Part shown: positions 17,786-64,000 of the stretch, one piece after another | Numbering within the stretch: position 1 is the stretch's first letter | Layout: every line of letters begins with the position of its first letter | From: Cloeon dipterum | Taxonomy: Eukaryota; Arthropoda; Insecta; Ephemeroptera; Baetidae | Reading direction: 5' to 3' | DNA length: 64,000 nt | NCBI RefSeq assembly: GCF_949628265.1 | Contig: NC_088789.1 | Location: 28,699,883-28,763,882 of the forward strand | Notes under the pieces: model-generated | The model's database searches: none | The model's input: the letters and a program-made list of their open reading frames with translations, nothing else | What the model was told of the DNA's origin: nothing | Translations under genes and position numbers: made by a program

Positions 17786-18049
17786 ATTGAAATAGATGCC
17801 TGCTGGATGTGTTGTGTCGAGATATTTCCTCCAGTACACTGAATGGGACAGTGGGAGGAATAACAAATAAATTGTGTATTCTGGCATGTTTACTCTTAAA
17901 ATAAATATTTGGATGGCACCAGAGTGTGGGTATATTGCTGGTAAACAAAACTAAAGAAAATAAGAACTATACTTTGCTGTTAATTTACGCCTAAAATTAG
18001 GCAAATTTTGTCTCTTTGACATACAATTCATAGTAATTTAATTTTCCCT

Positions 18050-20253: not shown

Positions 20254-20665
20254 TTTTCACAACCTGCCAAGAAGCAACCTTTTTTTTTTAAAAAAAAACC
20301 AAAGTATGAAAATAAATGCGTACTTCCCTTCAGGAAAATTAAAATTTCTTAAGCTGTTGCGTCTTCAACCGACAAAGATCTGGTTTCAACTAAACGCAAC
20401 CACTGTTAGAACAAAGCGTCAAACTGTGTGATTAGCCGATATTTACTTATCAATTTGAATGAAGATGTTTATTATGTTGTACATATAAATTTTTAAAATT
20501 AACATTGTTTAGTTCATTAAGGATCAGTCAATTCAAAATGATTTTAAATTGTTCACTTAAATATAATTGAAGGAAAAATTGATCAAATGAAAGATAAATT
20601 AAAGCCTAGACCAAACGTGTTTCCACTTACGAAATTTCTTCATGCGGTGAAATAATAGAATGGAG

Positions 20666-23955: not shown

Positions 23956-23991
23956 TTTCTTCTACATTATAAAATCTATACATTAACTCTC

Positions 23992-30900: not shown

Positions 30901-31243
30901 CATCAAGAGATTGGGCGAAGCAAAAAGATTGTGCCTCACCCTAAATGAAAGAGTGTTTGTTGAAGTGAATGCAGTGTATCTCCTTAGAGTAGTGCGAATG
31001 CCATGGTCAATCGAGTTTAGTTGTGCGGATAAGCGAAAATATTGGTGCAATTCAGATTTGCGAGTGAGAGTGGACAAGCCACCAACCGAGTCAATTGCCG
31101 ATTTTAGCACGTGTGTGTGTAACCGTGTCAATTGGTGGTGGGACCAGCGAGTGAACCTGTCCGTAAACGCAGAAGAGAACTGCTTGGATCCGAGTGTCGT
31201 GCATCGAGTTAGTGTGACCAAAAGGATTAACGCGAAACTGTGA
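27953..31243 (+). CDS. CMTR1: cap-specific mRNA (nucleoside-2'-O-)methyltransferase 1 (768 aa)
   Basis: Two coding exons: 27953-28001 and 28986-31243, joined by GTACGT...TTTCCAG so that G plus AT codes Asp (R-L-I-D-V-G-N-D-D). CMTR1 uses S-adenosylmethionine to methylate the ribose 2'-O of the first transcribed nucleotide in the nucleus. Order of domains: a G-patch at about residues 32-78 (NMGFIPGQGLGLKGQG), the FtsJ/RrmJ-type methyltransferase at about 170-380, and a guanylyltransferase-like C-terminal domain from about 500. The SAM-binding loop is ADICAGPGGFSEY near residue 211. The K-D-K-E tetrad is visible: Lys178 (ALKMAN), Asp296 (TMADGGF), Lys336 (VVKLFD), Glu373 (ANSERY). No canonical C-terminal WW domain is evident. 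Length is a little under the vertebrate enzyme. A leader exon probably ends at 27897. Confidence 0.95.
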
Positions 31244-39840: not shown

Positions 39841-40611
39841 TCTATTCAATTTAATTGCATGTATTTCAGTCTTCATGAACTCCTTTTCATGGTTACTTGA
39901 ATTTTTAGGCAGGATTTCTACGGAACAAATGCGATGAAAAACTGATAATCACGGGTCACTAGACTGATTTGGAAATTTCATGTCGCAAGACATCTGTTGA
40001 AACGTCCAAAGCGCCTAACCCATTCAAAAAGGATTACTTCTCTCTACCTTAATTGTTCAAAACGGGAGTATCAATTTTCAAATTTATCAGGGAAGTAAAA
40101 TGGGCTGTAAGAGTTGAGGATTGAGGGGGCATAGCACCTCAAAAGCCATTCTGCTAGCCAGGAGAAGTTAAGCGAAGTGCAGTTCTTGCATTTCTAGCTC
40201 TTATAAACCTAAGTATTTATTTTCGTAATCCAAAATTGAATTTCTTGCAAACAAAGCTGAAACCCCCCCTTTTCATTTTCTTTTAAGTTCACATGGACCC
40301 TTGAGACCACTTTTGAGTGGCGTTTTGGATTTTTCTGGTTTACTAAATCCCAAAATTTTATATAAAAAGCCTTGACGACTTCAAATTTGGTGTTTATTTG
40401 ATCTGGCTTGACGAGAGGAGTTAAATGTAAATGTTTTCTTTATAAAATGAGTTTTTGCATTCTCAAAATTCGTCAAGAATGCCCCGGATTACCCACAAAA
40501 ATGAATTTGATACCTCCAAAACGTCTTGCAACTTGTGATTTATTTCGTTCTATGTTTCACGTTTACAGTGATTCAATTTAGTTCCCTCGAGTTAGTTGGC
40601 GCCAAAAATTT

Positions 40612-40833
40612 TAAGCCGGAGGTTAAAACTGATTAATGCCCGGCATAAATTTGCTTTTTTAAAAAATTTGTTTCAATTTCAGGCTAAAATAGATTGTTTA
40701 CTAATACTAAAACACTTAAGATTTTATTTTTGATGTAAAATTTATAAATTTAAAATTCAAGATGTGTTTTATACTTGAAAATTTGTGTTCCAAAATTTTA
40801 GCCAATTTAGCCGGCTAAAATTGGCTTTTCGTC
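40612..40833. mobile_element. MITE-like segment, repeated in units B and C
   Basis: The ends resemble each other inward (AAGCCGGAGGTTAAAACTG and AAGCCAATTTTAGCCGGCTA), like the CMTR1 3' UTR element. Copies lie at about 47310-47535 in B and 54035-54214 plus 58941-58985 in C, where a 4.7-kb element splits it. The pairing is weak, so the call is tentative. Confidence 0.4.
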
Positions 40834-41029
40834 CTAATTATTTAAGAAGAGCTGGTGTTTTTTTTTAAACTGCTGTATTCTTGTCACTTTAAGAGCTAGA
40901 TTTAGCTCTGCATCGACTTGATTTCTTCCACTTGGTCCAGCAGCCCAGCGTTGCCTTGATATTTCTTCCATGTGTTAGAGAAAAGAAACCTTTTATAAGA
41001 GATTGCGAGCACTCTTAGAAAATCAGGCT

Positions 41030-41440
41030 ATCCACTTTTTACCAAGAGTTCCAAGTCTGTGTGAGGGGCGATGAGCATGACGACGATGTCATGACCCATT
41101 AATTTTCTTCCTCTGTAGAGGTCTTGAGTTAGACACGAGCCAGTGGCAAATTTAATGCTCCTCCGTGGAAGAAAACAATCACAGGAAAATTGGCCGCAGT
41201 TTAATCCAAACTGGGATTTTAAGATTAGCACATGTTTATAATTACATTTGGCGAGTAAACTTGAAGATAGAGACAATCCTCTCCGGAATCATCGTCTGCC
41301 CTGCTTCCCAACACAAAAATGTCGACCTTGGTGTGCCTAGAGTCAAACCCAGCAATAATTCCAACCTGAGGGCACTGATGTAGAAAAAATACCAGACCAA
41401 GGTGGAACCAGTAGGGGAGATCGCGTGTTTAGTATTAAAA
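41030..41440 (-). pseudogene. type-B carboxylesterase relic (unit A)
   Basis: On the minus strand, strings typical of the carboxylesterase family appear in different frames: G-I-I-A-G-F-D-S-R-H-T, then S-G-E-D-C-L-Y-L-Q-V-Y-S-P-N (the family's EDCLYLNVY motif), then V-I-V-F-F-H-G-G-A (the oxyanion-hole motif), then L-M-G-H-D-I-V-V-M-L-I. A stop follows the HGGA segment, and about 50 nt unlike the family separate the motifs. Only the N-terminal part of the enzyme is represented; the catalytic Ser region is absent. The same relic occurs in units B and C. Confidence 0.75.
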
Positions 41441-41649
41441 TTTCTGGGATTCAACGGAATTGGCTTTATTGAAAATTGACTTTTAAAAACTAATGTGAGC
41501 TAAATAATATAGCAAAAGGTTTAAAAGTGCCATTTTTGCTATAAGGTATACTAAATTTATTCATTTTCAAATTAAACAGATAAAAGCGAGAGTAATGAAA
41601 ATATCTTCTAAACCTAAGTACTGCTGACAAAGTTATCACTTAATATTAG

Positions 41650-42256
41650 AATTTTTCATTTTCCCGTCACATTGATTTGTTTTCCGTCCACCGTGCCAAA
41701 GCGAAATCACCTGTCGAGCACGGTGATTCAAAGGGAAAACGGCCACTTTGGGGCTCTGGAGGAATATGGCGACGGCAGGGTTGGCCACGATCGAGTTGAA
41801 CCCTGGAGGGCAGTGCCAGGGTAGAGGGGTGGAAGGGCCGGCTGAACCACACAGTGAGTATCTGCGTGCTGCTGTCACGGCTGCTGCTTGCCGAAAGCGT
41901 ATTTTGTGTTGACAGTGGTAGGGTCGGGCGTCAGGTCGACTAGACGCCGTGGCCAAACAAATTGTCGCTTTCGCTGTGGCCCACGTCAAAACCCTCGGCC
42001 GCGATCTGCCTGGCTGGCGGCCGGCGAGCCGTGCAGCAGCCTCTCGCACGTCCCCTCGGCCCCCAGCTCAGCCGCCCAAAGTCCAAAACGCGCCTCCAGT
42101 TCAACATTCTTGATTTTGTGCACGCGCTGCACTCTTGTATTTGCCGAAAATCGAATGCCAGCAAATGCAGCCAGTCGCTCATGGCCAAGAACTCGGGCTC
42201 CCACTTCTCCGGCGCGATAGAATCCGTTTCTGCGGCTGAAAATGAGACAAAATTTT
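41650..42256 (-). pseudogene. inverted PARP relic a (unit A)
   Basis: Read on the minus strand it follows the intact PARP gene from its intron acceptor (TTTGTCTCATTTTCAG) through the coding region to the 3' flank. The start codon is ACG (42227) instead of ATG. Frameshifts follow soon after the first 30 codons, a stop lies after F-G-H-G-V, and the zinc-motif segment is destroyed. Recognisable pieces include E-G-F-D-V-G-H-S-E-S-D-N-L-F-G. It also keeps about 350 bp of the parental intron and upstream DNA (42257-42640). Confidence 0.85.
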
Positions 42257-42636
42257 AATGATTTGCAATACTAAAAATTATCAAGAGCCAAATATTTTTC
42301 AAAAAAGACAAATTTTCATCGTTTTAAAAAAATTTCAGCGATCCTGTTGATTACAAAGGGTTTTCGCCCTTGTTTATCTCGTAAATGAAAAGCAGATACG
42401 TCGAAATTTCCAATTTCCGCGTCTTGATTACACAACCAAGCGGTGAAGCGAAATTTGGTGAATTTCAGTCGATTTTCGAATTGCCTCTCGATCAAAACAC
42501 GACACGTTGTGTTTCTCGCCAGCTGTTTGACTACCCTGGCGGCACCTGGGGGACTCAGGTTGCTACGCTGTGTGTTACTCTCGATGCCCGTTAGAGGGCA
42601 TCATGAAATCTCAGGACTGGCGTTCACAGACATTTT

Positions 42637-42930
42637 TTTGCGAGCCGTGCAGCAGCCTGCTCTCGCACGCCGCCTCGGCCCCCAGCGCCGCCGCCGGAAG
42701 TCCAAAAATCGCCTCCAGCTCTTCGTTCTTGATTTTGTGCACGCGCCGCTGCACTCTTGTATTTGCTGCTGCAAAGGGAATAATAATTTTAATGTCGCAG
42801 CAGCCCGAAGCCCAAATCGAATGCCGGCAAACGCTGCAGCCTGTCGCTCACGCGGCAAAGACCTCGGGCGCCCCCGCCTTCTCCAGGTCGATAGCTAGAA
42901 TCCGTTTCTGCGGCTGAAAATGAGAAAAAA
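42637..42930 (-). pseudogene. inverted PARP relic b (unit A), truncated
   Basis: A second, shorter minus-strand copy of the same gene, again with the TTTTCAG acceptor and a mutated start. It covers only about the first 75 codons, with indels (extra bases in the CAGCAG region), and ends inside the L-L-H-G motif area at GCTCGCAAAAAAATG. About 400 bp of parental upstream DNA follow at 42931-43360. Confidence 0.8.
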
Positions 42931-43427
42931 TTTAATGATTTGCAATGTTATAAATTATCAAATGCCAAAATTTTTCAAAAAAGATCTCAATTTTCATCGT
43001 TTTTTTTACAAAAATTTCAGCGATCCTGTTGAACGTGTTGATTACAAAGGGTTTGCGCCCCTGTCTAGATGGAAAATGAAAAGCAGATTAGTCGAAATTT
43101 CCAATTTCCGCGTCTAGATTACACAACTATGCGCGGTGAAGCGAAATTAGGTGATTTTCAGTCGATTTTCGAATAATTGCCATGCCTTATCACAAGAGAA
43201 ACACGACACGTTGTGTGTTTCTCGCCAGCTGTTTGACTACCCTGGCGGCACCTGGGGGACACCAGGTCTCAGGTTGCTGTGCTGTGTGTTACACTCCATG
43301 CCCGTGAGAGGGCATCATGAAATCTTCCAAGTAGGACTGGCGTTCACCGATATTTTTTGAGATGAACTTATTAAGCTCCTCCTCCAATGCCGTCTCATAC
43401 AGCGGCCCGGTTTTTGCTGGCAGTCTG

Positions 43428-43458
43428 TGACGTCATTATTGAAGGAGGTGCTTATATA
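43428..43458 (+). promoter_or_regulatory. CRE-like site and TATA box of PARP copy 1
   Basis: A perfect TGACGTCA palindrome (43428-43435) lies 17 bp before TATATA (43453-43458). A leader exon would run to the donor at 43658 (AACA then GTAAGA). The same arrangement is kept in unit B. TGACGTCA is the consensus of CREB/ATF factors, so inducible control is possible. Confidence 0.55.
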
Positions 43459-43916
43459 TCTGCCGGAGTTCACCAGTTCTATACTTAAACCATCTTACCA
43501 TTACCATCCTGAAGCTCAGCCAGGTGGCGCCAGGGTAGCCAAACCAAAGTAAACAAACATCAAACATCTGGTGAGAGAGTGGCGAGTAACACACACGTGT
43601 CTTGAGAGGCAACTCGCGGACTGAAATTCACCAAATTTCGCTTCATCGCACCAAACAGTAAGAAAAGCAGTGTTGAATTTTTAATTTGGCAAAACAATTG
43701 TGTAGTCACGACTTAGGAAATTGGAATTTCGAAGAATCTGCCCCACTTCCGAGCAAAACAAGGCCGCAAAAACTTGCTACTTATAGGCAATTCAACAGAG
43801 TGTCGCTTACATTATTGTTAAAAAGATTAAGATTGGCCTTTTTTGAAAAATTTCGGCACTGAATAATTTTAAGCATTGCAAGTCACTACAATTTTGTCTC
43901 ATTTTCAGCCGCACAA

Positions 43917-44651
43917 ATGGATTCTATCGAGTTGCAGAAGTGGGAGCCCGACTTCTTGGCCGTGAGCGACAGGCTACGTTTGCCGGACTTCGATTTGGGC
44001 GTCGGGCTGTTGCGACACTTCCCACTGCGGCAAATAAAAGTGCAGCGCGTGCACAAAATCAAGAACGAGAAGCTGGAGGCGCGTTTTGGACATCGGGCGG
44101 CTGAGCTGGGGGCCGAGGGGGTGTGCGAGAGGCTGCTGCACGGCTCGCCGGCCGCCTGGAAAATCGCGGACGAAGGTTTCGATGTGGGCCGCAGCGAAAG
44201 CGACAATTTGTTCGGCCGCGGCGTGTACCTGACGCCCGACCCTGCCACCGCCAACAAATACGCGTTCGGCAAGCTACAGCCGTGTCCACAGCACTCGGAC
44301 GCCCACTGCGTCCGCTGCGTGCGGCGGCTGCTGGTGTCCGACTGTCTGCTCGGCCGGCCCTTCCTCCCCTCGCTCCCCGCTTCCACCCCTCTGCCCTGGC
44401 CGTGCCCTCCAGGGTTCGACTCGATCGTGGCCGATCCCGCCACCAACCCCGCCGTGGGCCAATTCCTCCAGAGCCCCGAAGTGGTCGTCTTCCGCAACGA
44501 CCAGCTGATGCCTAGATACGTCGTTGAGTACACCATCTCCGTCTACTCGCGTGACGAGTTTGCCAAAATTGTGGGCCAGCAAATGCGGCAAAAAATGCAG
44601 CCGGTCCTTTGGAATCTCCGCCCGACAGGTGTTTTCTCTTCGGCATCGTGA
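43917..44651 (+). CDS. tankyrase-like PARP catalytic-domain protein, copy 1 (244 aa)
   Basis: One coding exon behind a non-coding leader; the intron (43658-43908) ends TCTCATTTTCAG eight bases before the ATG. It is a lone PARP catalytic domain that would move ADP-ribose from NAD+ to a target. Seen: the NAD-binding His75 in L-L-H-G-S-P, Tyr104 in G-R-G-V-Y-L, and a zinc motif CPQHSDAHCVRC (Cys123, His126, Cys131, Cys134). The C-x2-H-x4-C-x2-C spacing is that of tankyrase, and G-F-D-S-I-V and the final R-Y-V-V-E-Y also align with it. The third triad residue, Glu in tankyrase (P-E-Y-L-I-T-Y), is Arg200 here (M-P-R-Y-V-V-E-Y). So poly-ADP-ribose synthesis is unlikely; a mono-transferase or a binding-only role is inferred. 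No ankyrin, SAM or WWE part. Poly(A) signal at 44823. Confidence 0.85.
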   Translation: MDSIELQKWEPDFLAVSDRLRLPDFDLGVGLLRHFPLRQIKVQRVHKIKNEKLEARFGHRAAELGAEGVCERLLHGSPAAWKIADEGFDVGRSESDNLFGRGVYLTPDPATANKYAFGKLQPCPQHSDAHCVRCVRRLLVSDCLLGRPFLPSLPASTPLPWPCPPGFDSIVADPATNPAVGQFLQSPEVVVFRNDQLMPRYVVEYTISVYSRDEFAKIVGQQMRQKMQPVLWNLRPTGVFSSAS

Positions 44652-46407
44652 TGCCCGCTTTCAAATCCAAAAGAGACTGTGTCTAGAACCTTTAAATGGA
44701 CGAAAAACAAATCGGACTGATTTGTAGACGAAACATTCCAATATAAAATGAAAACTTTGTCAGTAGCACTTTGATTTTAAGGCTATTTCTTAACTCGCTT
44801 TTATCTGTGTAGTTTGAAAATGAATAAATTTTGTATATACTTTAAAAACTGAATATTTTGTTTTTAAAAATAAAATTTGATGGCTCTGGATACTGTGACT
44901 TTCAACATTGTGCTGTATTATTCAGTTCACATTAGTAGTGTTTCCACTGAAAATGGCATCATTGTAAATTATTTATTCATTTTTTGTTTCTAGTCCATGC
45001 TGAGACTATTACCCAGCTCACAATCAGACTAAGCGAATTGTTACTAATGGCAGCATCAATTGGTATTGTATATCAAATTTAAATTATTACCCTTATTACC
45101 ATAGCTTTTGCTGAAATTTATCAAGCCTATTAAATATACAGCACCAGCATTTGTAAAACAACTAAGCACTGCCTTGGCACGCACCCCAGACTGCACTCTT
45201 GGCTATGGCCGTACCAGTAGACACACTACAAAGAAGAAGAAGCTAGAATTTTGGCCATCAACGCACTCTGAACATGCACAGCGGCGCACTCATCGTGAAT
45301 TGAACCTTCTGATTAAATTTGAATCCAATCTTGATCTTGAATTTGATAGTTGGGTCTTACAAAGGTACGGCTATACATGAAAACCAAGCTTAAAAAATGT
45401 TGCCTTCGAATTTGTTCAATTTTTGACGGTTTTCTCACTCCTTCAAAGTCACGCAAGGGCCAAAAATGATCATTTTATTAAAAGATTTCCAAAATTTAAA
45501 CATTAACTCCATGATGAAGAATGCCTTGCTCATTAAATTTTAAATTTTTTAGTTCGAAATAAAATGTTCATTTGATTCATATTTGGTTATTAATAGTGGT
45601 AAAATATCGGGGTAGTGCCGTAAAATAACAAAAGGAAACACCGTTTCATTGTCATCTTGAGAAACATATTAATTTACATGATGAGCGCAAAGTGCAGTAT
45701 ATAGTTGCTCATTTTGATTTAATTTATCTTGGCTATGGAGGTCCATGTAAAACTCACAAGCAGGGGAAGCTCTTTATTTTCAGAGATTTCTTTATTTTGT
45801 GGTTCTGCAGGGCTATTTAAGCATATACGTGTTTTAGTTAATAGTGGCAGTGTATAGAAAATTGGATTTCAATTAATTTGAATTCTTTGCACTACTGCGC
45901 ACCGCCACCTCAATCTTCGTTTTGTGCTCTCTGCGCAACAGTTAATTAAACCGATAAAATAACTTCTATAAACACGGCCGCTCCTAGTGTCTTTCTGAAT
46001 AACTGGCAAAGAAGCTAAATATTAAACTCGAATATATTTCATTGTCTTAAGATAGGGCGTCGGTGTAATTTTGAGTATTGGGGGATAGCGATACGCAAAA
46101 ATATGGTGCATGGATGGTAGTTAAGATCAGAGCAAACTTTTTAATTGGTCGGAGTTTGCTTACTAAATGATTTTGTCGCTTTTAGTTTTGGTTCAATAAT
46201 ATTCATTTGTCGAAAGTTAATTTTAGTTGACGAGCGTTAAATCAATGGGATGACATTTTTAGAGAAAAATCGTTACTGGCTCATTAAAATCTCCGATAAA
46301 CAAAGTTATGTCATATTTGGTATGGGCACAAAAGGGAATTAAACCTTGGAAATAATCGCAGATATCCCAGAATAACTTTTACTATTATTCAAATTTATTT
46401 AATTTAG
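44652..46407. other. non-coding part of unit A
   Basis: PARP 3' flank with AATAAA at 44823-44828, then AT-rich DNA. An open frame of 90 codons at 45108-45380 is not kept in unit B, where indels break it, so it is not called a gene. Confidence 0.6.
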
Positions 46408-46670
46408 GCACCGTTCCTATGTATAATTGAATATGAAAATATTTACACGTTTCTTATACACTAACATGTTTACAGTCCAAAGAGCAAATCTAGATAAATA
46501 ATATATTTAAACAATATTTTCAAGAATGACAGAAAAGATCTGCCTCCTCTAAAATGCATTAGTTTCCACTCGCTCCATCCTTTTTGCAGAGGAGTCCGTT
46601 AGTGGCTGGACGCAGAATAAGAGGAAACTTGTTAAGGCAGAAGGTAACTTGAGATTGTTTTATTTTAAAA
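46408..46670 (+). repeat. copy of the ANK7 leader/promoter at the A/B junction
   Basis: 263 bp match 23992-24254 (reverse complement), starting GCACCGTTCCTATG and ending TTATTTTAAAA, where the unit changes to CGTCCAAAGC. The 54-nt leader exon is present with acceptor CCTTTTTGCAG and donor GTAACT. No ankyrin coding sequence follows. Confidence 0.85.
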
Positions 46671-47699
46671 CGTCCAAAGCTTCTAACCCATTCAAAAAGG
46701 ATTACTTCTCTCTACCTTAATTGTTCAAAACGGGAGTATCAATTTTCAAATTTGTCAAAGAATTAAATATGGGCAATAAGAGTTGAGGATTGAGGGGGCA
46801 TAGCACCTCAAAAGCCATTCTGCTAACCAGGGGTAGCGAAGCCAAGTGCAGGTTTTGCATTTCTAGCTCATATATACCTAAGATTTTTACGCTCAAATCA
46901 TTTGCAAAAATTGAAAATTATTTATTTTCGAAATGCAAAATTTATTTTTTTGAAAACAAAGCTGAAAACCGCTTTTTTATTTTCATTGAAGTTAACACGG
47001 TCCCTTTGAGACCACTTTTGAGTGTCGTTTAGTATTTTTCTGGTTTGCTACATCCCAAAATTTAAAAAAAAGTCTTGATGACCTCAAATTTGGTGTTCAT
47101 TTGATCTGGCTTGACGAGAGGAGTTAAATTCACATGTTTTCTTTATAAAATGAGTTTGCATTCTCAAAATTCTCCCAAGAATGTCCCGTATTACCCACAA
47201 AAATGAATTTAATACCTTAAAACGTGTTTGACTCGTGATTTATTTCATCCTACTTTTTTTCGTTTACAGTGATTCAATTCAGTTCCCTCGAGTTTGTTAG
47301 CGCCAAAAATTTTAAGCCGGAGGTTTAAACTGGTTTATGCTCGGCATAAATTTGCTTTTTTAAAAAATTGGTTTCAATTTCAGGCTAAAATAGGTTGTTT
47401 ACTTATACTGAAACACTTAAGATTTTATTTTTGATGTAAAATTTATAAATTTAAAATTCAAGATATATTTTATACTTGAAAATTTGTGTTAGTTCCCTAA
47501 TTTTAGCCAATTTAGCCGGCTAAAATTGGCTTTTCGTCCTAATTGTTTAAGAAGAGCTGGTGTTTTTTTAAAACTGCTGTATTCTTGTCACCTTAAGAGC
47601 TAGATTTAACTCTGCACCCACTTGATTGCTTCCACTTGGTCAAGCAGGCCAGCGTTGCCTTTTCATATTTCTTCCATGTGTTAGAGAAAAGAGATTGCG

Positions 47700-48130
47700 A
47701 ACTCTCTCTCAAAATCATGCTTTCCACTTTTTACCAAGAGTTCCAAGTCTGTGTGAGGGGCGATGAGCACGACGTCATGTCCCATAAATTTTCTTTCTCA
47801 GTAGAGGTCTTGAGTTGGACGAGCCAGCGGCAAATTTAATGCTCCTCCGTGGAAGAAAACCATCACAAACAAATTAGCTGCAGTTGAACCCAAACTGGGA
47901 TTTTAAGATTAGCACATGTTTATAATTACATTTGGCGAGTTAACTTGAAGATAGAGACAATACTCTCCGGAATCATTGTCTGCCCTGCTTCTAAAAACAC
48001 AAAAATGTCGACCTTGGTGTGCCTAGAGTCAAACCCAGCAATAATTCCAACCTGAGGGCACTGATGTAGAAAAAATACGAGACCAAGGTGGAACCAGTAG
48101 GGGAGATCGCGTGTTTAGTATTAAAATTTC
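47700..48130 (-). pseudogene. type-B carboxylesterase relic (unit B)
   Basis: Same broken fragment as in unit A, with the HGGA region again kept on the minus strand (the ATG in V-M-V-F-F-H-G-G-A differs) and a 6-bp loss in the GACGACGATGTC stretch. Not functional. Confidence 0.75.
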
Positions 48131-48364
48131 AGGGATTCAAGGTAATTGGCTTTATTGAAAATTGACCTAGAATCTCTGATACTACTATATACTTTTAAAA
48201 ACTCGAAATGTGAGCTAAATAATAAAGCAAAAGGTTTAAAAGTGCCATTTTTGCTATAAGGTATACTAAATTTATTCATTTTCAAATTAAACAGGTAAAA
48301 GCGAGAGTAAAGAGAACATCTTCAAAACCTAAGTGCTACTGACAAAGTTTTCACTTAATATTAC

Positions 48365-48960
48365 AATTTTTCATTTTCACGTCACATTGATTTGTTTTTC
48401 GTCCACCGTGCCAAAGCGAAATCGCCTGTCGGGCACGGTGATTCCATGGGAAAACTGCCACTTGGAAGAATTGGGCGACGGCAGGGTTGACCACGATCGA
48501 GTTGAACCCTGGAGGGCAGTGCCAGGGTAGAGGGGTGGAAGGGCCGGCTGAACAGTCAGCCAGCAGCCGCACACAGTGAGTATCTGCTTGCTGCTGACAC
48601 GGCTACTGCTTGCCGAAAGCGTATTTTGTGTTGACAGTGGTAGGGTTGGGCGTCAGGTCGACTAGACGCCGTGGCCAAACATATTGTCGCTTTCGCTGCG
48701 GCCCACGTCATAACCCTCGGCCGCGATCTGCCAGGCTGGCGGCCGGCGAGCCGTGCAGCACGTCCCCTCGGCCCCCAGCGCCGCCGCCTGAAGTCCAAAA
48801 CGCGCCTCCAGCTCAACATTCTTGATTTTGTGCACGCGCTGCGCTCTTGTATTTGCCGAAAATCGAATGCCAGCAAATGCAGCCAGTCGCTCATGGCCAA
48901 GAACTCGGGCTCCCACTTCTTCAGCGCGATAGAATCCGTTTCTGCGGCTGAAAATGAGAC
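48365..48960 (-). pseudogene. inverted PARP relic a (unit B)
   Basis: Counterpart of 41650-42256, with the same ACG start codon and further small deletions (the CTCGCACGTC stretch is shorter). It shows that the relic existed before the units were duplicated. Confidence 0.82.
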
Positions 48961-49375
48961 AAAATTTTAATGATTTGCAATACTAAAAATTATCAAGTGC
49001 CAAAATTTTTCAAAAAACAAATTTTTTCGTTTTAGCAAAAATTTCAGCGATCCTGTTGATTTCAAAGGGGTTTCGCCCTTGTTTATCTCGTAAATGAAAA
49101 GCAGATTCGACGAAATTTCGGAAATTTCCAAAAATTTCCGCGTCTTGATTACACAACTACTGCTTTTCATTCTGTTTGATGCAGTGAAGCGAAATTTGGT
49201 GGATTTCTGTCGATTTTCGAATTGCCTCTCGATCAAAACACGACACGTTGTGTGTTTCTCGCCAGCTGTTTGACTACCCTGGCGGCACCTGGGGGACTCA
49301 GGTTGCTACGCTGTGTGTTACTCTCGATGCCCGTTAGAGGGCATCATAAAATCTCAGGACTGGCGTTCACAGACA

Positions 49376-49660
49376 TTTTTTTGCGAGCCGTGCAGCAGCC
49401 TGCTCTCGCACGCCGCCTCGGCCCCCAGCGCCGCCACCTGAAGTCCAAAACTTGCCTCCAGCTCTTCGTTCTTGATTTAGTGCACGCGCCGCTGCACTCT
49501 TGTATTTGCTGCTGCAAAGGGAATATAAATTTTAATGTCGCAGCAGCCCGAAGCCCAAATCGAATGCCGGCAAACGCTGCCTGTCGCTCACGCGGCAAAG
49601 ACCTCGGGCGCCCCCGCCTTCTCCAGGTCGATTGAATCCGTTTCTGCGGCTGAAAATGAG
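49376..49660 (-). pseudogene. inverted PARP relic b (unit B)
   Basis: Counterpart of 42637-42930, lacking a few of its bases (AATCGCC versus AACTTGCC; one fewer GCA). It has the same truncated end. Confidence 0.78.
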
Positions 49661-50157
49661 AAAATTTTAATTATTTGTAATGTTAAAAATTATCAAGTGC
49701 CAAAATTTTTCAAAAAAGATCAATTTTCATCGTTTTTACAAAAATTTCAGCGATCCTGTTCAACGTGTTGATTACAAAGGGTTTGCGCCCCTGTCTAGCT
49801 TGGAAATGAAACGCAGAATAGTCGAAATTTCCAATTTCCGCGTCTATCGATTACACAACTATGCGCGGTGAAGCGAAATAAGGTGAATTTCAGTCGATTT
49901 TCGAATAATTGCCTTATTACAAGAGAAATACGACACGTTGTGTGTGTATTTCTCGCCAGCTGTTTGACTACCCTGGCGGCACCTGGGGGACTCAGGTCTC
50001 AGGTTGCTGTGCTGTGTGTTACACTCCATGCCCGTGAGAGGGCATCATGAAATCTTCCTAGTAGGACTGGCGTTCACCGACATTTTTAGAGATGAAATTA
50101 TTAAGCTCCTCCTCCAATGCCGTCTCATACAGCGGCCCGGTTTTTGCTGGCAGTCTG

Positions 50158-50188
50158 TGACGTCATTATTGAAGGAGGTGCTTATATA
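50158..50188 (+). promoter_or_regulatory. CRE-like site and TATA box of PARP copy 2
   Basis: TGACGTCA at 50158-50165 and TATATA at 50183-50188, with spacing identical to copy 1. Confidence 0.55.
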
Positions 50189-50646
50189 TCTGCCGGAGTT
50201 CACCAGTTCTATACTTAAACCATCTTACCATTACCATCCTGAAGCTCAGCCAGGTGGCGCCAGGGTAGCCAAACCAAAGTAAACAAACATCAAACATCTG
50301 GTGAGAGAGTGGCGAGTAACACACACGTGTCTTGAGAGGCAACTCGCGGACTGAAATTCACCAAATTTCGCTTCATCGCACCAAACAGTAAGAAAAGCAG
50401 TGTTGAATTTTTAATTTGGCAAAACAATTGTGTAGTCACGACTTAGGAAATTGGAATTTCGAAGAATCTGCCCCACTTCCGAGCAAAACAAGGCCGCAAA
50501 AACTTGCTACTTATAGGCAATTCAACAGAGTGTCGCTTACATTATTGTTAAAAAGATTAAGATTGGCCTTTTTTGAAAAATTTCGGCACTGAATAATTTT
50601 AAGCATTGCAAGTCACTACAATTTTGTCTCATTTTCAGCCGCACAA

Positions 50647-51381
50647 ATGGATTCTATCGAGTTGCAGAAGTGGGAGCCCGACTTCTTGGCCGTGAGCGAC
50701 AGGCTGCGTTTGCCGGACTTTGATTTGGGCGTCGGGCTCTTGCGACACTTCCCATTGCGGCAAATACAAGTGCAGCGCGTGCACAAAATCAAGAACGAGA
50801 AGCTGGAGGCGCGTTTTGGACATCGGGCGGCTGAGCTGGGGGCCGAGGGGGTGTGCGAGAGGCTGCTGCACGGCTCGCCGGCCGCCTGGAAAATCGCGGA
50901 CGAAGGTTTCGATGTGGGCCGCAGCGAAAGCGACAATTTGTTCGGCCGCGGCGTGTACCTGACGCCCGACCCTGCCACCGCCAACAAATACGCATTCGGC
51001 AAGCAGCAGCCGTGTCCACAGCACTCGGACGCCCACTGCGTCTGCTGCGTGCGGCGGCTGCTGGTGTCCGACTGTCTGCTCGGCCGGCCCTTCCTCCCCT
51101 CGCTCCCCGCTTCCACTCCTCTGCCCTGGCCGTGCCCTCCAGGGTTCGACTCGATCGTGGCCGATCCCGCCACCAACCCCGCCGTGGGCCAATTCCTCCA
51201 GAGCCCCGAAGTGGTCGTCTTCCGCAACGACCAGCTGATGCCGAGATACGTCGTCGAGTACACCATCTCCGTCTACTCGCGTGACGAGTTCGCCAAAATT
51301 GTGGGCCAGCAAATGCTGCAAAAAATGCATCCGGTCCCTTGGAGTCACAGCCCGACAGGTGTTTTCTCTTCGGCATCGTGA
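50647..51381 (+). CDS. tankyrase-like PARP catalytic-domain protein, copy 2 (244 aa)
   Basis: Differs from copy 1 at nine residues: Lys41Gln, Leu120Gln, Arg133Cys, then six in the last 25 residues (Arg224Leu, Gln228His, Leu231Pro, Asn233Ser, Leu234His, Arg236Ser, read from copy 1 to copy 2). His75, Tyr104, the zinc motif and Arg200 are unchanged; Arg133Cys adds a cysteine inside the zinc motif (HCVCC). Leader intron, acceptor and promoter are as in copy 1. Both frames being open, with silent changes elsewhere, suggests both are under selection. Poly(A) signal at 51555-51560. Confidence 0.85.
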   Translation: MDSIELQKWEPDFLAVSDRLRLPDFDLGVGLLRHFPLRQIQVQRVHKIKNEKLEARFGHRAAELGAEGVCERLLHGSPAAWKIADEGFDVGRSESDNLFGRGVYLTPDPATANKYAFGKQQPCPQHSDAHCVCCVRRLLVSDCLLGRPFLPSLPASTPLPWPCPPGFDSIVADPATNPAVGQFLQSPEVVVFRNDQLMPRYVVEYTISVYSRDEFAKIVGQQMLQKMHPVPWSHSPTGVFSSAS

Positions 51382-52521
51382 TGCCCGCTTTCAAATCCAA
51401 AAGAGACTGTGTCTATAGAACTTAAATGGACGAAAAACAAATCGGACTGATTTGTAGACGAAACATTCCAATATAAAATGAAAACTTTGTCAGTATAGCA
51501 CTTAGATTTTGAGGCTATTTCTTAACTCGATTTTATCTGTGTAGTTTAAAAATGAATAAATGTTGTATATACCTTAAAAACTGAATATTTTGTTTTTAAA
51601 AATAAAAATTTGATGACTCTGGATACTGTGACTCAACATCGTGCTGTATTATTCAGTTCACATTGGTAGTGTTTCCCCTGAAAATGGCATAATTGTAAAT
51701 TATTTATTAATTTTTGTATTTCTAGTCCATGCTGACTGTTACCCAGCTCACACAAATCGAATTTTAACTAATGGCAGCATCAATTGGTATTGTATATCAA
51801 ATTTTGAATTATTACCATAGCTTTTGCTGAAATATATCAAGCCTATTAAATATGCAGCACCAGCATTTGTAAAACAACTAAGCACCGCCTTGGTACGCAC
51901 CTCGGACTGCACTCTTGGCTGTGTGGCCGTACCAGTAGACACACTTGAAGAAGAATTTTGGCCATCAACGCACTCTGAACATGCACATAAAGTTGCCTAG
52001 CGGCGCAGCCGTGAATCGTATCTAAATAAATTTGGATCCAAATCTTGATCTTGGATTTGATAGTTGGGTCCTACAAAGGTACGGCTATGTATGACAACCA
52101 AGCTTAAAAAATGTTGCCTTTAAATTTGTTCAATTTTTGACGGTTTTCTCACTCATTCAAAGTCACGCCCTTGCCAAAAATGCTCATTTCCAAAATTTAC
52201 ACATCAACTCCATGATAAAGAATTCCTTGCTCATTAAATTTTAAAGTTTTTGATTTCGAAATATGTTCTTTTGATTGATATTCGGTTATTAATAGTGGTA
52301 AAATATCGGGGCACTGCCGTAAAATAACAAAAGGACACACCGTTTCATTGTCAACTTGAGAAACATATTAATTTGCATGATGAGCGCAAAGTGCAGTATA
52401 TAGTTGCTCATTTTGATTTAATTTATCTTGGCTATGGAGGTCCATGCAAAACTCACAATCAGGGGAAGCTCATTATTTTCAGAGATTTCTTTATTTTGTG
52501 GTTCTGCAGGGCTATTTAAGC

Positions 52522-52553
<32 letters not shown>

Positions 52554-53131
52554 CGTGTTTTAGTTAATAGTGGCGGTGTATAGAAAATTGGATTTCAATT
52601 AATTTGAATTCTTTGCACTACTGCGCACCGCCCCCTCAATCTTCGTTTTGTGCTCTCTGCGCAACAGTTAATTAAACCGATAAAATAACTTCTATAAACA
52701 CGGCCGCTCCTAGTGTCTTTCTGAATAACTGGCAAAGAAGCTAAATATTAAACTCGAACATATTTCATTGTCTTAAGATAGGGCGTCGGTGTAATTTTGA
52801 GTATTGGGGGATAGCGATACGCAAAAATATGGTGTATGGATGGAAGTTAAGATCAGAGCAAACTTTTTAATTGGTCGGAGTTTGCTTACTAAATGATTTT
52901 GTCGCTTAGTTTTGATTCAATCATATTCATTTGTCGAAAGTTAATTTTAGTTGACGAGCGTTAAATCAATGGAATGACATTTTTAGAGAAAAATCGTTAC
53001 TGGCTCATTAAAATCTCCGATAAAGAAAGGTATGTCATATTTGGTATGGGCACAAAAGGGAATTAAGCCTTGGAAATAATCGCACGTATAACAGAAAAAC
53101 TTTTACTATTATTCAAATTTATTCAATTTCT
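51382..53131. other. non-coding part of unit B
   Basis: Matches 44652-46407 with indels; contains a TA-repeat expansion at 52522-52549 not present in unit A. No gene. Confidence 0.6.
52522..52549. repeat. (TA)n microsatellite
   Basis: About 13 TA units; unit A has only ATATA at the same place, so it expanded after duplication. Confidence 0.85.
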
Positions 53132-53398
53132 GCACCGTTCCTATATGTATAGTTGAATATGAAAATATTTACACGTTTCCTATACACTAACACGTTTACA
53201 GTCCAAAGAGCAAATCTAGATAAATAATATATTTGAACAATATTTTCAAGAACGACAGAAAAGATCTGCCTCCTCTAAAATGCATTAGTTTCCACTCGCT
53301 CCACATCCTTTTTGCAGAGAAGTCTGTTAGTGGATGGACGCAGAATAAGAGGAAACTTGTTAAGGCAGAAGGTAACTTGAGATTATTTTATTTTAAAA
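53132..53398 (+). repeat. copy of the ANK7 leader/promoter at the B/C junction
   Basis: Second plus-strand copy of 23992-24254, again with the leader exon between CTTTTTGCAG and GTAACT. It ends TTATTTTAAAA at the switch to unit C. Confidence 0.85.
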
Positions 53399-54293
53399 CG
53401 TCCAAAGCGTCTAAGCCATTCAAAAAGGATTACTTTCTCTCTACCTTAATTGTTCAAAACGGGAGTATCAATTTTCAAATTTATCAGGGAATTAAAATGG
53501 GCTGTAAGAGTTGAGGATTGAGGGGGCATAGCACCTCAAAAGCCACTCTGCTAACCAGGGGTAGCGAAGCCAAGTGCAGGTTTTGCATTTCTAGCTCATA
53601 TACCTAAGATTTTTACGCTCAAATGATTTGCAAAAATTGAAAATTATTTATTTTCGAAATGCAAAATTTATTTTTTTGAAAACAAAGCTGAAAACCGCTT
53701 TTTTATTTTCATTAAAGTTAACACGGTCCCTTTGAGACCACTTTTGAGTGTCGTTTAGTATTTTTCTGGTTTGCTACATCCAAAAATTTAAAAAAAAACT
53801 TGATGACCTCAAATTTGGTGTTCATTTGATCTGGCTTGACGAGAGGAGTTAAATTCACATGTTTTCTTTATAAAATGAGTTTGCATTCTCAAAATTCTCC
53901 CAAGAATGTCCCGTATTACCCACAAAAATGAATTTAATACCTTAAAACGTCTTTGACTCGTGATTTATTTCATCCTACTTTTTTTCGTTTACAGTGATTC
54001 AATTTAGTTCCCTCGAGTTTGTTAGCGCCAAAAATTTTAACCTGGAGGTTTAAACTGGTTTATGCCGGCATAAATTTGCTTTTTTAAAAAATTGGTTTCA
54101 ATTTCAGGCTAAAATAGGTTGTTTACTAATACTGAAACACTTAAGATTTTATTCTTGATGTAAAATTTATAATTTTAAAATTCAAGATGTGTTTTATACT
54201 TGAAAATTTGTGTTACCCAGCGAGCAGAGGGGTAACCGCGGTCACTTTTCGGTCACCTGACGAAAGTTGAGCAAAGTGTGGTTTTGTGTTTCA

Positions 54294-55130
54294 GGCATGA
54301 TCCTGATTCATGTTTCATTGGAATTTTTTTGAAATTTTGCTTGGATCATGCAAATTTTGAGTGCCCAGTCTTGGGCACCCGATGGGCACCTTTCGGTTAC
54401 CCGGAGCGGGCAGGGGGTCACTTGCGGTCACCTAACAAAATTAAAACTAAGGGTGATTTTGCATTTCAGGCATGATCCTGAATCATGATTCATTAAATTT
54501 TTGTCTAAATTTGGCTTGGATCACCGAAATTGCCACTGCCCAGTCTTGGGCACCCATCGGGCACCTTTCGGATACTCGGAGTGGGCAGGGGGTTACTTGC
54601 GGTCACCTAACAAAATTAAAACTAAGAGTGATTTTGCATTTCAGGCATGATCCTGATTCATGTTTCATTGGATTTTTTTTAAATTTGGCTTGGATCATGC
54701 AAATTTTGAGTGCCCAGTCTTGGGCACCCGATGGGCACCTTTCGGTTACCTGGAGCGGGCAGGGGGTTACTTGCGGTCACCTAACAAAATTAAAATTAAG
54801 GGTGATTTTGCATTTCAGGCATGATCCTGAATCATGTTTCATCGGATTTTTTTCGAAATTTGGCTCGGATCACCGAAATTGCCCGTGCCCAGTCTTGGGC
54901 ACCCATCGGGCACCTTTCGGATACTCGGAGTGGGCAGGCGGTTAACCATGGTCACTTGCGGTCACCAAAAAATTAAACTAAGAGTGGTTTTGCATTTCAG
55001 GCATGACCCTGAACCTGGCTTCGTTGGAATTTTTTATATTTGGCTGGGATCACCTAAAATTGCCAGTGCCCAGTCGTGGGCAACCATCGGGCAGCTTTCG
55101 GGTAGCTCGGATCGGATAACTGCGGTGTGA
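54294..55130. repeat. five tandem copies of a 175-bp repeat
   Basis: Copies begin GGCATGATCCTGA at 54294, 54469, 54644, 54818 and (diverged) 55000. Copies 1 and 3 resemble each other (CATGCAAATTTTGAGTGCCC) and copies 2 and 4 resemble each other (CACCGAAATTGCC), so the real unit is a dimer of about 350 bp. Each has a TTGGGCACCCATCGGGCACC-like palindromic core. Confidence 0.85.
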
Positions 55131-60450: not shown

Positions 60451-61617
60451 AAAATTCGAAATTTTTAAGATTTTGTAGAAAATTCGGCCAAAATCCGAAC
60501 ATTTTGTTACCCTCGGGGAACCGCATTTCCGAGGCGGTCGAATGTCATACATCTCGACAAAAAAACATGAAATTCGGTTTGTGGGCACAAAACAAAGTGC
60601 TGAGCAGGAAAAAGTGTGGTTTTTGAAAATCAGACCAAAATTGTCCATTTTCATAAGGGGTCCGAGTTTGGCCTTGCAGCTCGGCACCTATGGGTCCGAG
60701 AGCAAAAATAAGCACAGTTTCTGAAAGCTGATAAAATTTGCAATCTTCTTCATGTGGAAAAAAAATTTCCTCCACTTTCGGATTTTCCAGAAAATTCCTG
60801 TAAAAAATCTCTTAACCTTATGAGAAAAGGAAAAATACCGAGAAAATTTTTTCAAGATAGCCAAAATTTAGCAGAGATCTTCATTAACTTCTCGTGCAAA
60901 AATTAAAACATTCGTGCAAGCCGTTTTCGTGCTGCGCGCGATTTCCCAAGTGTCCACCTGGAAAAACCGAAAAAAATCGAAAGTGTCCGAAAATTGTCGA
61001 AATGCACATTTTTGAACTCGTCATGAAATGCTGATTCCAAAAATGTCTGGTTTTTAAAATTCCGAGCATTTTTCGAAAAGTTACGCTTTTTTTAAAAAGT
61101 TAAAATTTTCCGAAATGTCGTAAAAAGTTCAAAAATCCATAACTTTTTCAAAAACGCTCTAATTTTTGAAAATCAAACATTATTGGAATCAGCACTTCAT
61201 GACGAGTCCAAAAACGTGCAATTTGACAATTTTCGGTCACTTTCGATTTTTTTCGGTTTTTCCAGGTGGACACTTGGGAAATTGCACGCAGCACGAAAAC
61301 GGCTAGCACGAATGTTTTTATTTTTGCACGAGAAGTCAATGAAGACCTGTGCTAAATTTTGGCTATCTTGAAATTTTTTTATCGATATTTTTCCTTTTCC
61401 CATAAAGTTAAGAGATTTTTTAATTGAATTTTCCGGAAAATTCGAAGGCGGAGGAAAATTGTTTTCCACACAAGGAAGATTGGAAATTTCATCAGCTTTC
61501 AGAATCTGTTCTTATTTTTGCTCTCGGACCCATAGGTGCCGAGCTGCAAGGCCAAACTCGGACCCCTTATGAAAATGGACAACTTTGGTCTGATTTTCAA
61601 AAACTAAAATTTTTCCA
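60451..61617. repeat. left arm of a large inverted repeat
   Basis: Each base x pairs with base 124451 minus x on the right side: stretches at 60545-60775 and 61197-61469 match 63676-63906 and 62982-63254 without gaps. The arm is itself palindromic around about 61113 (GTGCTGCGCGCGATTTCCCA against TGGGAAATTGCACGCAGCAC). Homology ends at about 61617 (AAATTTTTCC). Short open frames in it are by-products and have no family. Confidence 0.9.
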
Positions 61618-62559
61618 GACCATCTTGCCATTTTCTAGCAGCATACCGAACTTCGACTTTATCCGACATGATTTGTCCCCTCAGTCTCCCCTCGAGCTGA
61701 GCTTCCCGACATGTGTTTGCCTGAGTTAGACATTTGCACCGATTTTCATGCAAAATCATAATTTTTTCGATTGTTTCACATCAACAATGGCTTCGCCGGA
61801 AAATTTCAGCCAGAATCCATGTTGTGCTTATCATTTTGTGAGAAAATTTGGTAAAAGCCGTAATTTTGTGTGACCTGAAACTCAAATTTTCGCTCCTTTG
61901 AAAAATTTAGCATTGTAAATTGAAAAAATAGCGCCAGATTCGGATTCCCCGTGAAATTTTACCCTGGAAAACCTGTTTGCACGATAGAAAAACGAAGGTT
62001 CGTGTTTTGGAAACGTTTGACCTGAGTTTTCCATATGACACCTTTTTCACCTGAGCGATTTTCATTGTACTGGCGCAACAATCGACCTGGGAGGGTAGAT
62101 ACCAATTATTGGTCTCTTCCTCCACAGCCAAAGTTTATGCCGACGTTGGAATTTTTCGGATCAGGCTGCACGGCGCCTCGAGATCTCGCGCTAGAACCCC
62201 GGTTACAAAGGTCATTGATTTCTGGGACAAAAAACTTTAGTCTGACTTTCAAAAAACCAGCGAACGATTTTGCAGAGCGTGGTGCGGCGGTGCGAGTTTT
62301 GGTCGCAAACGACACGATTTTGTGGTATACAAGATCGTTCGCTGCCGTCCCGCGATTATTGTTAGCCAAAAAGAGCGCCTCCGCCCCGCGCACCGCAACA
62401 CCACGCAAATGGCACCGCGCTGCCACCGAAAGTGAAAAAAGTAAGCGATGATGCCAGAAAAAACGCGTAGAAACAGTTATTAGGTTGCGCGACCTGCGGA
62501 AGATCAATTACAGTCCAGAGATTAAAATCATCGCGCAAAAGGGGTGTTTTTTTAGGGTG
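61618..62559. other. spacer of the large inverted repeat
   Basis: About 940 bp of sequence not shared by the arms. An open frame at 62035-62451 (+) of 138 codons and its antisense show no family resemblance. Nothing else seen. Confidence 0.45.
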
Positions 62560-62880
62560 TAGGGTTGCGTGGCTGACGGGATGACGGTCGACATCAGAGT
62601 CGGCAAAATGTGTCGTGCCGCACATGTTTTCAGGGTGAAATTTTCCGCAAAGACCAAATTTGAGGTTGAAAACTTGATTTTTTTCGAAATTTTTAAGATT
62701 TTGAAGAAAATTTGGCCAAACGCCAAACATTTTGTTACCCATCAAGGACTGCATTTCGTAGGCGGTCAATTGTCATAAATCTCGACACAAAAACGTGACA
62801 TTCGGTTTGTGGGCACAAAATAAAGTACTGGGCAGGAAAAATTTTAGTTTTTGAAAATCAGACCAAAGTTGTCCATTTTC
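62560..62880. repeat. direct copy of the outer edge of the left arm
   Basis: Matches 60355-60660 in the same orientation with substitutions and small indels (GTGTCGTGCCGCACATGTTT in both). So the right arm is bordered by a second, older copy of the element's end, which gives the block a repeat-within-repeat structure. Confidence 0.7.
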
Positions 62881-64000
62881 ATAAGGGGTCCGAGTTTGGC
62901 CTTGCAGCTCGGCACCTATGGGTCCGAAAGCAAAAATAAGAACAGATTCTGAAAGCTGATGAAATTTCCAATCTTCCTTGTGTGGAAAACAATTTTCCTC
63001 CGCCTTCGAATTTTCCGGAAAATTCAATTAAAAAATCTCTTAACTTTATGGGAAAAGGAAAAATATCGATAAAAAAATTTCAAGATAGCCAAAATTTAGC
63101 ACAGGTCTTCATTGACTTCTCGTGCAAAAATAAAAACATTCGTGCTAGCCGTTTTCGTGCTGCGTGCAATTTCCCAAGTGTCCACCTGGAAAAACCGAAA
63201 AAAATCGAAAGTGACCGAAAATTGTCAAATTGCACGTTTTTGGACTCGTCATGAAGTGCTGATTCCAATAATGTTTGATTTTCAAAAATTAGAGCGTTTT
63301 TGAAAAAGTTATGGATTTTTGAACTTTTTACGACATTTCGGAAAATTTTAACTTTTTAAAAAAAGCGTAACTTTTCGAAAAATGCTCGGAATTTTAAAAA
63401 CCAGACATTTTTGGAATCAGCATTTCATGACGAGTTCAAAAATGTGCATTTCGACAATTTTCGGACACTTTCGATTTTTTTCGGTTTTTCCAGGTGGACA
63501 CTTGGGAAATCGCGCGCAGCACGAAAACGGCTTGCACGAATGTTTTAATTTTTGCACGAGAAGTTAATGAAGATCTCTGCTAAATTTTGGCTATCTTGAA
63601 AAAATTTTCTCGGTATTTTTCCTTTTCTCATAAGGTTAAGAGATTTTTTACAGGAATTTTCTGGAAAATCCGAAAGTGGAGGAAATTTTTTTTCCACATG
63701 AAGAAGATTGCAAATTTTATCAGCTTTCAGAAACTGTGCTTATTTTTGCTCTCGGACCCATAGGTGCCGAGCTGCAAGGCCAAACTCGGACCCCTTATGA
63801 AAATGGACAATTTTGGTCTGATTTTCAAAAACCACACTTTTTCCTGCTCAGCACTTTGTTTTGTGCCCACAAACCGAATTTCATGTTTTTTTGTCGAGAT
63901 TTATGACATTCGACCGCCTCGGAAATGCGGTTCCCCGAGGGTAACAAAATGTTCGGATTTTGGCCGAATTTTCTACAAAATCTTAAAAATTTCGAATTTT
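62834..64000. repeat. right arm of the large inverted repeat, running off the window
   Basis: Near-exact reverse complement of 60451-61617, with the same internal palindrome (centre about 63338). The match is still intact at the last base, so the true length is unknown. Confidence 0.9.

Follow-up and report, generated by a model that had tools for sequence, protein, structure and literature searches.

Tankyrase-type PARP genes with arginine at the catalytic glutamate position belong to a glutamate-less family in Cloeon dipterum

Introduction

What can a tankyrase-type PARP domain still do once the glutamate of its catalytic triad has given way to arginine? The question is raised by two genes of Cloeon dipterum that lie in a stretch of 64,000 nucleotides (C4:28699883-28763882, hereafter the window, in a 190-Mb genome of 10 contigs) and that an initial annotation, made from the letters alone, had described as two intact copies of a free-standing domain with Arg200 in the place of Glu. 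Passages of two papers on PARP catalysis state that the triad His and Tyr hold nicotinamide adenine dinucleotide (NAD), that Glu stabilises the reaction and that chains do not elongate without it, that PARP1 E988 mutants mono-modify only, and that an acidic acceptor may stand in for Glu (PMC10789625, PMC9189837). Tankyrases have so far been described as uniform, with the triad H-Y-E in every clade-4 (tankyrase) protein covered by the relevant passages of a published survey (Citarelli 2010, PMC2964712).

Here, we describe a family that departs from this survey, in that it comprises at least 26 tankyrase-type loci, none of the 26 with Glu at the third triad position. We propose, with about equal confidence for and against, that the family is derived from tankyrase, has lost Glu, still binds NAD and makes no poly(ADP-ribose), its members serving as mono-ADP-ribosyltransferases or as NAD-dependent binders.

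Results

Two intact genes carry arginine at the glutamate position

The two genes lie on the plus strand at 43917..44651 (copy 1) and 50647..51381 (copy 2), each with a single-exon coding region for a stand-alone tankyrase-type PARP domain of 244 amino acids and without an internal stop. The proteins are 96% identical, and His75, Tyr104, the zinc motif C123-x2-H126-x4-C131-x2-C134 (codons 44283..44318 in copy 1) and Arg200 are invariant between them, giving the triad H75-Y104-R200. PF00644 (PARP) scored 30.2 and 31.5 bits against a curated cut-off of 26.7, and two other Pfam families matched, each below its own cut-off. The positions, the intactness of both copies, the PARP assignment and the retained residues are thus as the initial annotation had them. 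Its proposal that tankyrase is the nearest characterised relative also held, and the best matches did not come from another PARP family: when copy 1 was compared with the PDB sequences by phmmer, tankyrase-1/2 ranked first and made up 27 of the 29 matches at E <= 0.01 (best E 1.4e-21), the other two being PARP13 (E 1.7e-8 and 1.4e-7). A profile of eight rows (the two window copies, five paralogues and the genome's own tankyrase) likewise placed tankyrases on top (E about 1e-64) and PARP12, PARP15 and PARP14 below them (E 1.6e-15 or weaker) among the matches listed, 60 of 96, although the top rank of tankyrase is here partly built in because the genome's own tankyrase is one of the rows. Both rankings cover the sequences of solved structures. 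Chance likeness is excluded by these E-values together with the excess of silent changes reported below.

In the five printed alignments, MPRYVVEYTI of copy 1 stands opposite YPEYLITYQI of tankyrase free of gaps; Arg200 therefore sits on the tankyrase catalytic Glu, as had been claimed. Its codon is AGA in both copies, at 44514..44516 in copy 1 (by alignment to tankyrase) and at 51244..51246 in copy 2 (register taken from the alignment of the copies and the family). Arg200 is not the sole active-site change, since the residues seven and eight positions after the triad Tyr are also replaced: Thr111 and Ala112 stand where the genome's own tankyrase has Lys and Ser, the latter presumably a nicotinamide contact (Ser904 of PARP1). 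No ankyrin or SAM match was found in the 244-residue frame, where PARP alone exceeded its cut-off, in agreement with the description of the domain as free-standing, and a putative 5' exon (see below) may be coding.

Glutamate is absent from the site throughout the family

The genome was searched with the window protein, PF00644 and two paralogues. It holds one tankyrase catalytic domain with Glu (C1:22.94 Mb, AYPEYLITYQI), a tankyrase known here by that domain, and no fewer than 26 other PARP loci of tankyrase type, the three window-type copies included; the number is a lower bound because it covers the best-scoring candidates only. The loci form an array at C3:7.54-7.56 Mb and a cluster at C1:8.32 Mb, with others on C3, C4 and C5 and at C1:24.79 Mb. 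The members were taken from spliced models, two rows (C1_8.318 and C4_13.17) being completed by eye. Not counted were two more distant loci at C4:18.516 Mb and C1:33.24 Mb, both with Ser at the site, whose models contain stops and show no zinc motif. Also set aside were the degenerate copies on the minus strand, a partial copy on C2 that is likewise degenerate, and PF00644 loci of non-tankyrase type such as PARP1, which were not classed one by one. Three loci on viral contigs also matched in the scan and were rejected, as their long open frames read as phage polyvalent proteins and not as tankyrases.

The catalytic Glu is lost from every family copy examined (0/26). Its place is taken by Ser in nine members, Arg in six, Gln in three and Tyr in two, and once each by Phe, Met, Gly, Asp, Asn and Lys, the last in a relative at C3:7.701 Mb (L052). 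One of the 26, C1_8.3215, is doubtful in that its model works only with an intron of 35 nt, which probably spans a break in the frame; without it, Glu stands at 0/25 and Tyr occupies the Glu place once. With ten different residues at the Glu place, Arg is not odd within the family. The earlier remark that Arg is unusual therefore stands in so far as it departs from the H-Y-E of the surveyed clade 4 (PMC2964712, in the passages on this clade), and does not stand as a peculiarity of the two window genes, since six of 26 members share it.

The register of the site is firm because the Pro just before it (-1) and the Tyr at +5 are each kept in 25/26 members, and a misalignment of Arg200 with Glu204 was rejected on the same ground. 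In principle Glu204, which follows Arg200 by four residues in the same strand, could have taken over the work and left a normal transferase: Glu is found at this +4 position in 18/26 members, where both tankyrases aligned have Thr. Yet eight of 26 members have no Glu there (the Arg gene C3_8.230, for example, has Thr), and the register is held by the flanking Pro and Tyr. In an extended strand, four residues span about 13 angstroms, and Glu204 is thus probably too far from the site. We regard such a relocated Glu as highly improbable.

The rest of the active site is better preserved, with the triad His in 25/26 members and the triad Tyr and all four zinc ligands in 26/26. These counts bear on whether the proteins transfer ADP-ribose at all. 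They could instead be pseudoenzymes, serving like PARP13 as a binding module or decoy, for instance for tankyrase, its clients, NAD or ADP-ribose, and we consider this a real possibility, if one that we would not bet on. A Glu lost in 26/26 members and replaced by ten different residues looks like a relaxed site, and one relative (C4_12.108, L050, at C4:12.108 Mb) has lost even the triad His, which is Leu, with Asn at the Glu place. Loss of catalysis is a close rival to the proposed NAD-linked role because the window genes carry the further replacements of Ser and Lys after the triad Tyr. However, an unused pocket should have let His and Tyr drift as Glu has done, and the human members listed as inactive in the part of the source concerned with them, PARP9 and PARP13, are without His (PMC9189837).

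Ankyrin and SAM parts are clearly absent from the window genes, and are likely to be absent from several genes of the C3 array too. Four of the six array genes have about 0.7-2.0 kb between the last exon of the previous gene and their first PARP exon, which is too short for the ankyrin and SAM parts of a tankyrase. Family members elsewhere in the genome would be expected to lack these parts as well. One of them (L007, C1:24.787 Mb) has, upstream of its PARP exon, a frame that encodes a run of hydrophobic residues and then lysines, perhaps a membrane anchor at the N terminus.

The proteins look selected

Compared pairwise, the three window-type copies gave ratios of nonsynonymous to synonymous substitution rates (dN/dS; NG86) of 0.28, 0.47 and 0.35 for the full-length protein and of 0.09, 0.31 and 0.26 for residues 1-223. 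Each pair differs at only 17-20 nucleotides, and the YN00 estimate failed for one of them. A synonymous distance (dS) of about 0.05-0.06 marks the copies as young. Across the domain part of the six genes in the C3 array, all 15 pairs had dN/dS of 0.11-0.35, most with dS near 1. Two of the six are Arg members (AGA) with a dN/dS of 0.24 between them, and the other four have Ser encoded by AGC or AGT, one base from AGA. Thus dN/dS was below 1 in 18/18 pairs computed (three window-type and 15 from the C3 array), and where selection was measured the family genes still look selected for a working protein, which suggests that a gene can be retained with Arg at the Glu place.

These values also bear on the idea that the window genes have lost their importance and, having been amplified in tandem recently, are now decaying. 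The low dS and the degenerate minus-strand copies found in each of the two window units fit such decay. All three plus-strand copies are nevertheless open-framed with dN/dS < 1, whereas it is the minus-strand copies that carry stops, and the older relatives of the C3 array, with most pairs near a dS of 1, keep dN/dS at 0.11-0.35. Decay of the intact genes thus appears unlikely to us.

Introns, tree and recurrence of basic residues

Two intron positions of the genome's own tankyrase recur in most relatives. Immediately before G(I/V)Y, a phase-1 intron is present in 18 of the 25 spliced models checked, and 20 of the 25 have a phase-0 intron that follows the Gln ahead of the last exon; the 26th member (C4_13.17) was read by eye. 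The three window-type genes have neither, their coding region being intronless. A derivation of the window genes from tankyrase is supported by their sequence and zinc motif, together with intron positions that are shared by most members, though not by the window genes.

In a tree of 29 rows, built with the Glu-site column left out (8/26 inner branches starred, 9 open), the window trio and the C1:8.32 Mb cluster form a group (support 84/84), and both fall inside a ten-row clade (support 99/94). Arg is spread over three distinct branches, Lys is confined to a single one, and the minimum number of changes on the tree is three for Arg, four for Arg or Lys, and thirteen for all states. That the Arg copies form one old lineage was rejected by the approximately unbiased test (p 1.3e-7 against a single clade), with the Arg grouping chosen after the tree had been seen.

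A basic residue arose at least three separate times (four with Lys), and the family might be viewed as nature's own panel of active-site mutants of tankyrase, now turned to a new acceptor chemistry. Arg200 may then hold a phosphate, the preferred acceptor being a phosphorylated RNA end or another phosphate, as for TRPT1 and some mono-PARPs, perhaps in defence; we offer this as a speculation that is very improbable.

Tandem units and surroundings

Both genes lie in tandem units of about 6.7 kb with approximate ends, unit 1 at 40038..46706 (repeat families D6, D7 and D9-D12) and unit 2 at 46707..53434, which are 92% identical across 5820 aligned columns. In each unit, an intact gene on the plus strand is accompanied by two degenerate copies on the minus strand: in unit 1 a copy with stops and frame changes at 41735..42224 and a second, shorter one at 42641..42851, and in unit 2 the corresponding copies at 48462..48936 and 49384..49591. 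The third intact copy (95% identity) is outside the window, some 2.6 kb past its end, at C4:28766528-28767256.

Motifs suggest how the intact window genes may be organised. A 5' intron at 43571..43908 in copy 1 and 50301..50638 in copy 2, both on the plus strand, would be delimited by a donor-like GTGAGA, which precedes the exon by 338 nt, and by an acceptor-like TTTTCAG that lies 8 nt ahead of the ATG. On the same strand, TATA-like stretches, so called by resemblance only, stand at 43451..43464, upstream of the putative first exon of copy 1, and at 50181 for copy 2, and candidate AATAAA hexamers follow the stop at 44823 and 44869 (span 44823..44874) in copy 1 and at 51555 and 51601 in copy 2.

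Several other features were observed in the window. Four direct repeats spaced about 175 bp apart at 54148-54955 are flanked by stretches matching the start of a third 6.7-kb unit, and an inverted repeat with 1172-nt arms, 100% complementary and 1206 nt apart (60451-61622 and 62829-64000), extends to the window end. An open frame of 757 residues on the plus strand (28970-31243) contains G-patch and FtsJ methyltransferase domains and resembles what we take to be the mRNA cap methyltransferase CMTR1. The minus strand carries an array of ankyrin-type open reading frames at 795-23961, three of which (795-2774, 15866-17950 and 18358-20256) were scanned and list ankyrin families only, the remainder being judged by eye. 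The scanned frame nearest to the PARP genes ends at 20256 on the opposite strand, and the nearest ankyrin-like frame listed ends at 23961. That these ankyrin genes and the PARP genes represent a split tankyrase, an idea suggested solely by their position, was rejected on the content of the three scanned frames.

Discussion

Taken together, the window genes and the third copy would have arisen by recent tandem duplication of a single member of a family of small PARP domains, which were presumably freed from the ankyrin and SAM parts of tankyrase. Glu would then have been lost family-wide, and the site would have drifted or been re-tuned to many residues, Arg among them. As Glu is gone while His and Tyr are kept, the pattern fits lost chain growth with some NAD-linked role retained: NAD would still be held via His and Tyr, the poly(ADP-ribose) chain would not be elongated, and the proteins would be either mono-ADP-ribosyltransferases relying on an acidic acceptor, a mechanism proposed for PARP10, or binders that depend on NAD. 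Binding of NAD, mono-transfer and the absence of polymerase activity are thus predictions from the residues that are kept and lost.

Several observations weigh against this proposal of a tankyrase-derived, NAD-linked function. The replacements of Ser by Ala and of Lys by Thr at eight and seven residues after the triad Tyr point to a weakened use of NAD in the window genes. The 26 loci do not form one clade in the free tree, although such a clade is not rejected (p 0.086), and AlphaFold2 gave no usable structure for the two window copies (mean pLDDT, the predicted local distance difference test, of 31; the model was not used). Human mono-ADP-ribosyltransferases are described, in the section of the source that deals with them, as having Ile, Leu, Tyr or a kept Glu at the site (PMC9189837), and the literature passages on PARP catalysis contained no active PARP with a basic residue there. 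The role of Glu-less PARPs is now testable within one family and one host. Neither a tankyrase-type expansion without Glu nor an H-Y-R PARP was reported among the matches listed in our literature search, which covered titles and abstract openings and few subscription journals or preprints.

Finally, the window genes can be compared with four known systems. Gig2 of fish, amphibians and other non-amniotes resembles the family in being PARP-related and expanded lineage by lineage, and differs in being vertebrate, in its very weak PARP similarity (PARP11 as outgroup) and in a unique C-terminal part (according to the passages describing it, PMC3617106); this likeness is an analogy by description and not by sequence alignment. 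PARP13/ZAP was the sole non-tankyrase match of copy 1 among solved structures at E <= 0.01, but has lost the NAD-binding His, reading Y-Y-V in the relevant part of the source (PMC9189837), as PARP9 has also lost it, whereas the window genes keep His75. The H-Y-hydrophobic mono-ADP-ribosyltransferases (PARP10, 12, 14, 15 and 16) share the loss of Glu with kept His and Tyr, and PARP12 and PARP15 were next best in the profile search among the 60 of 96 matches listed. These enzymes are not known to carry the tankyrase zinc motif. Their third residue is Ile, Leu or Tyr in the passages on these enzymes (PMC9189837), and human PARPs without Glu are described in part of an earlier survey as having Ile, Leu, Thr, Val or Tyr there (Otto 2005, PMC1266365), in contrast to the Arg of the window genes, which is not hydrophobic. 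Tankyrase 1/2 (PARP5a/b, ARTD5/6) is the best sequence match of the window genes and shares with them C-x2-H-x4-C-x2-C and the triad His and Tyr, and the two intron positions of the genome's own tankyrase are found in most of their relatives. The window genes nonetheless have Arg for Glu, replaced Ser and Lys after the triad Tyr, an intronless coding region and no ankyrin or SAM match in the frame, while animal tankyrases are described, in the passages at hand, with ankyrin and SAM parts (Perina 2014, PMC4245714). Having the nearest domain and the zinc motif of clade 4 and lacking both its H-Y-E triad and its ankyrin and SAM parts, the window genes are tankyrase-type PARPs for which the name 'tankyrases' would be wrong.

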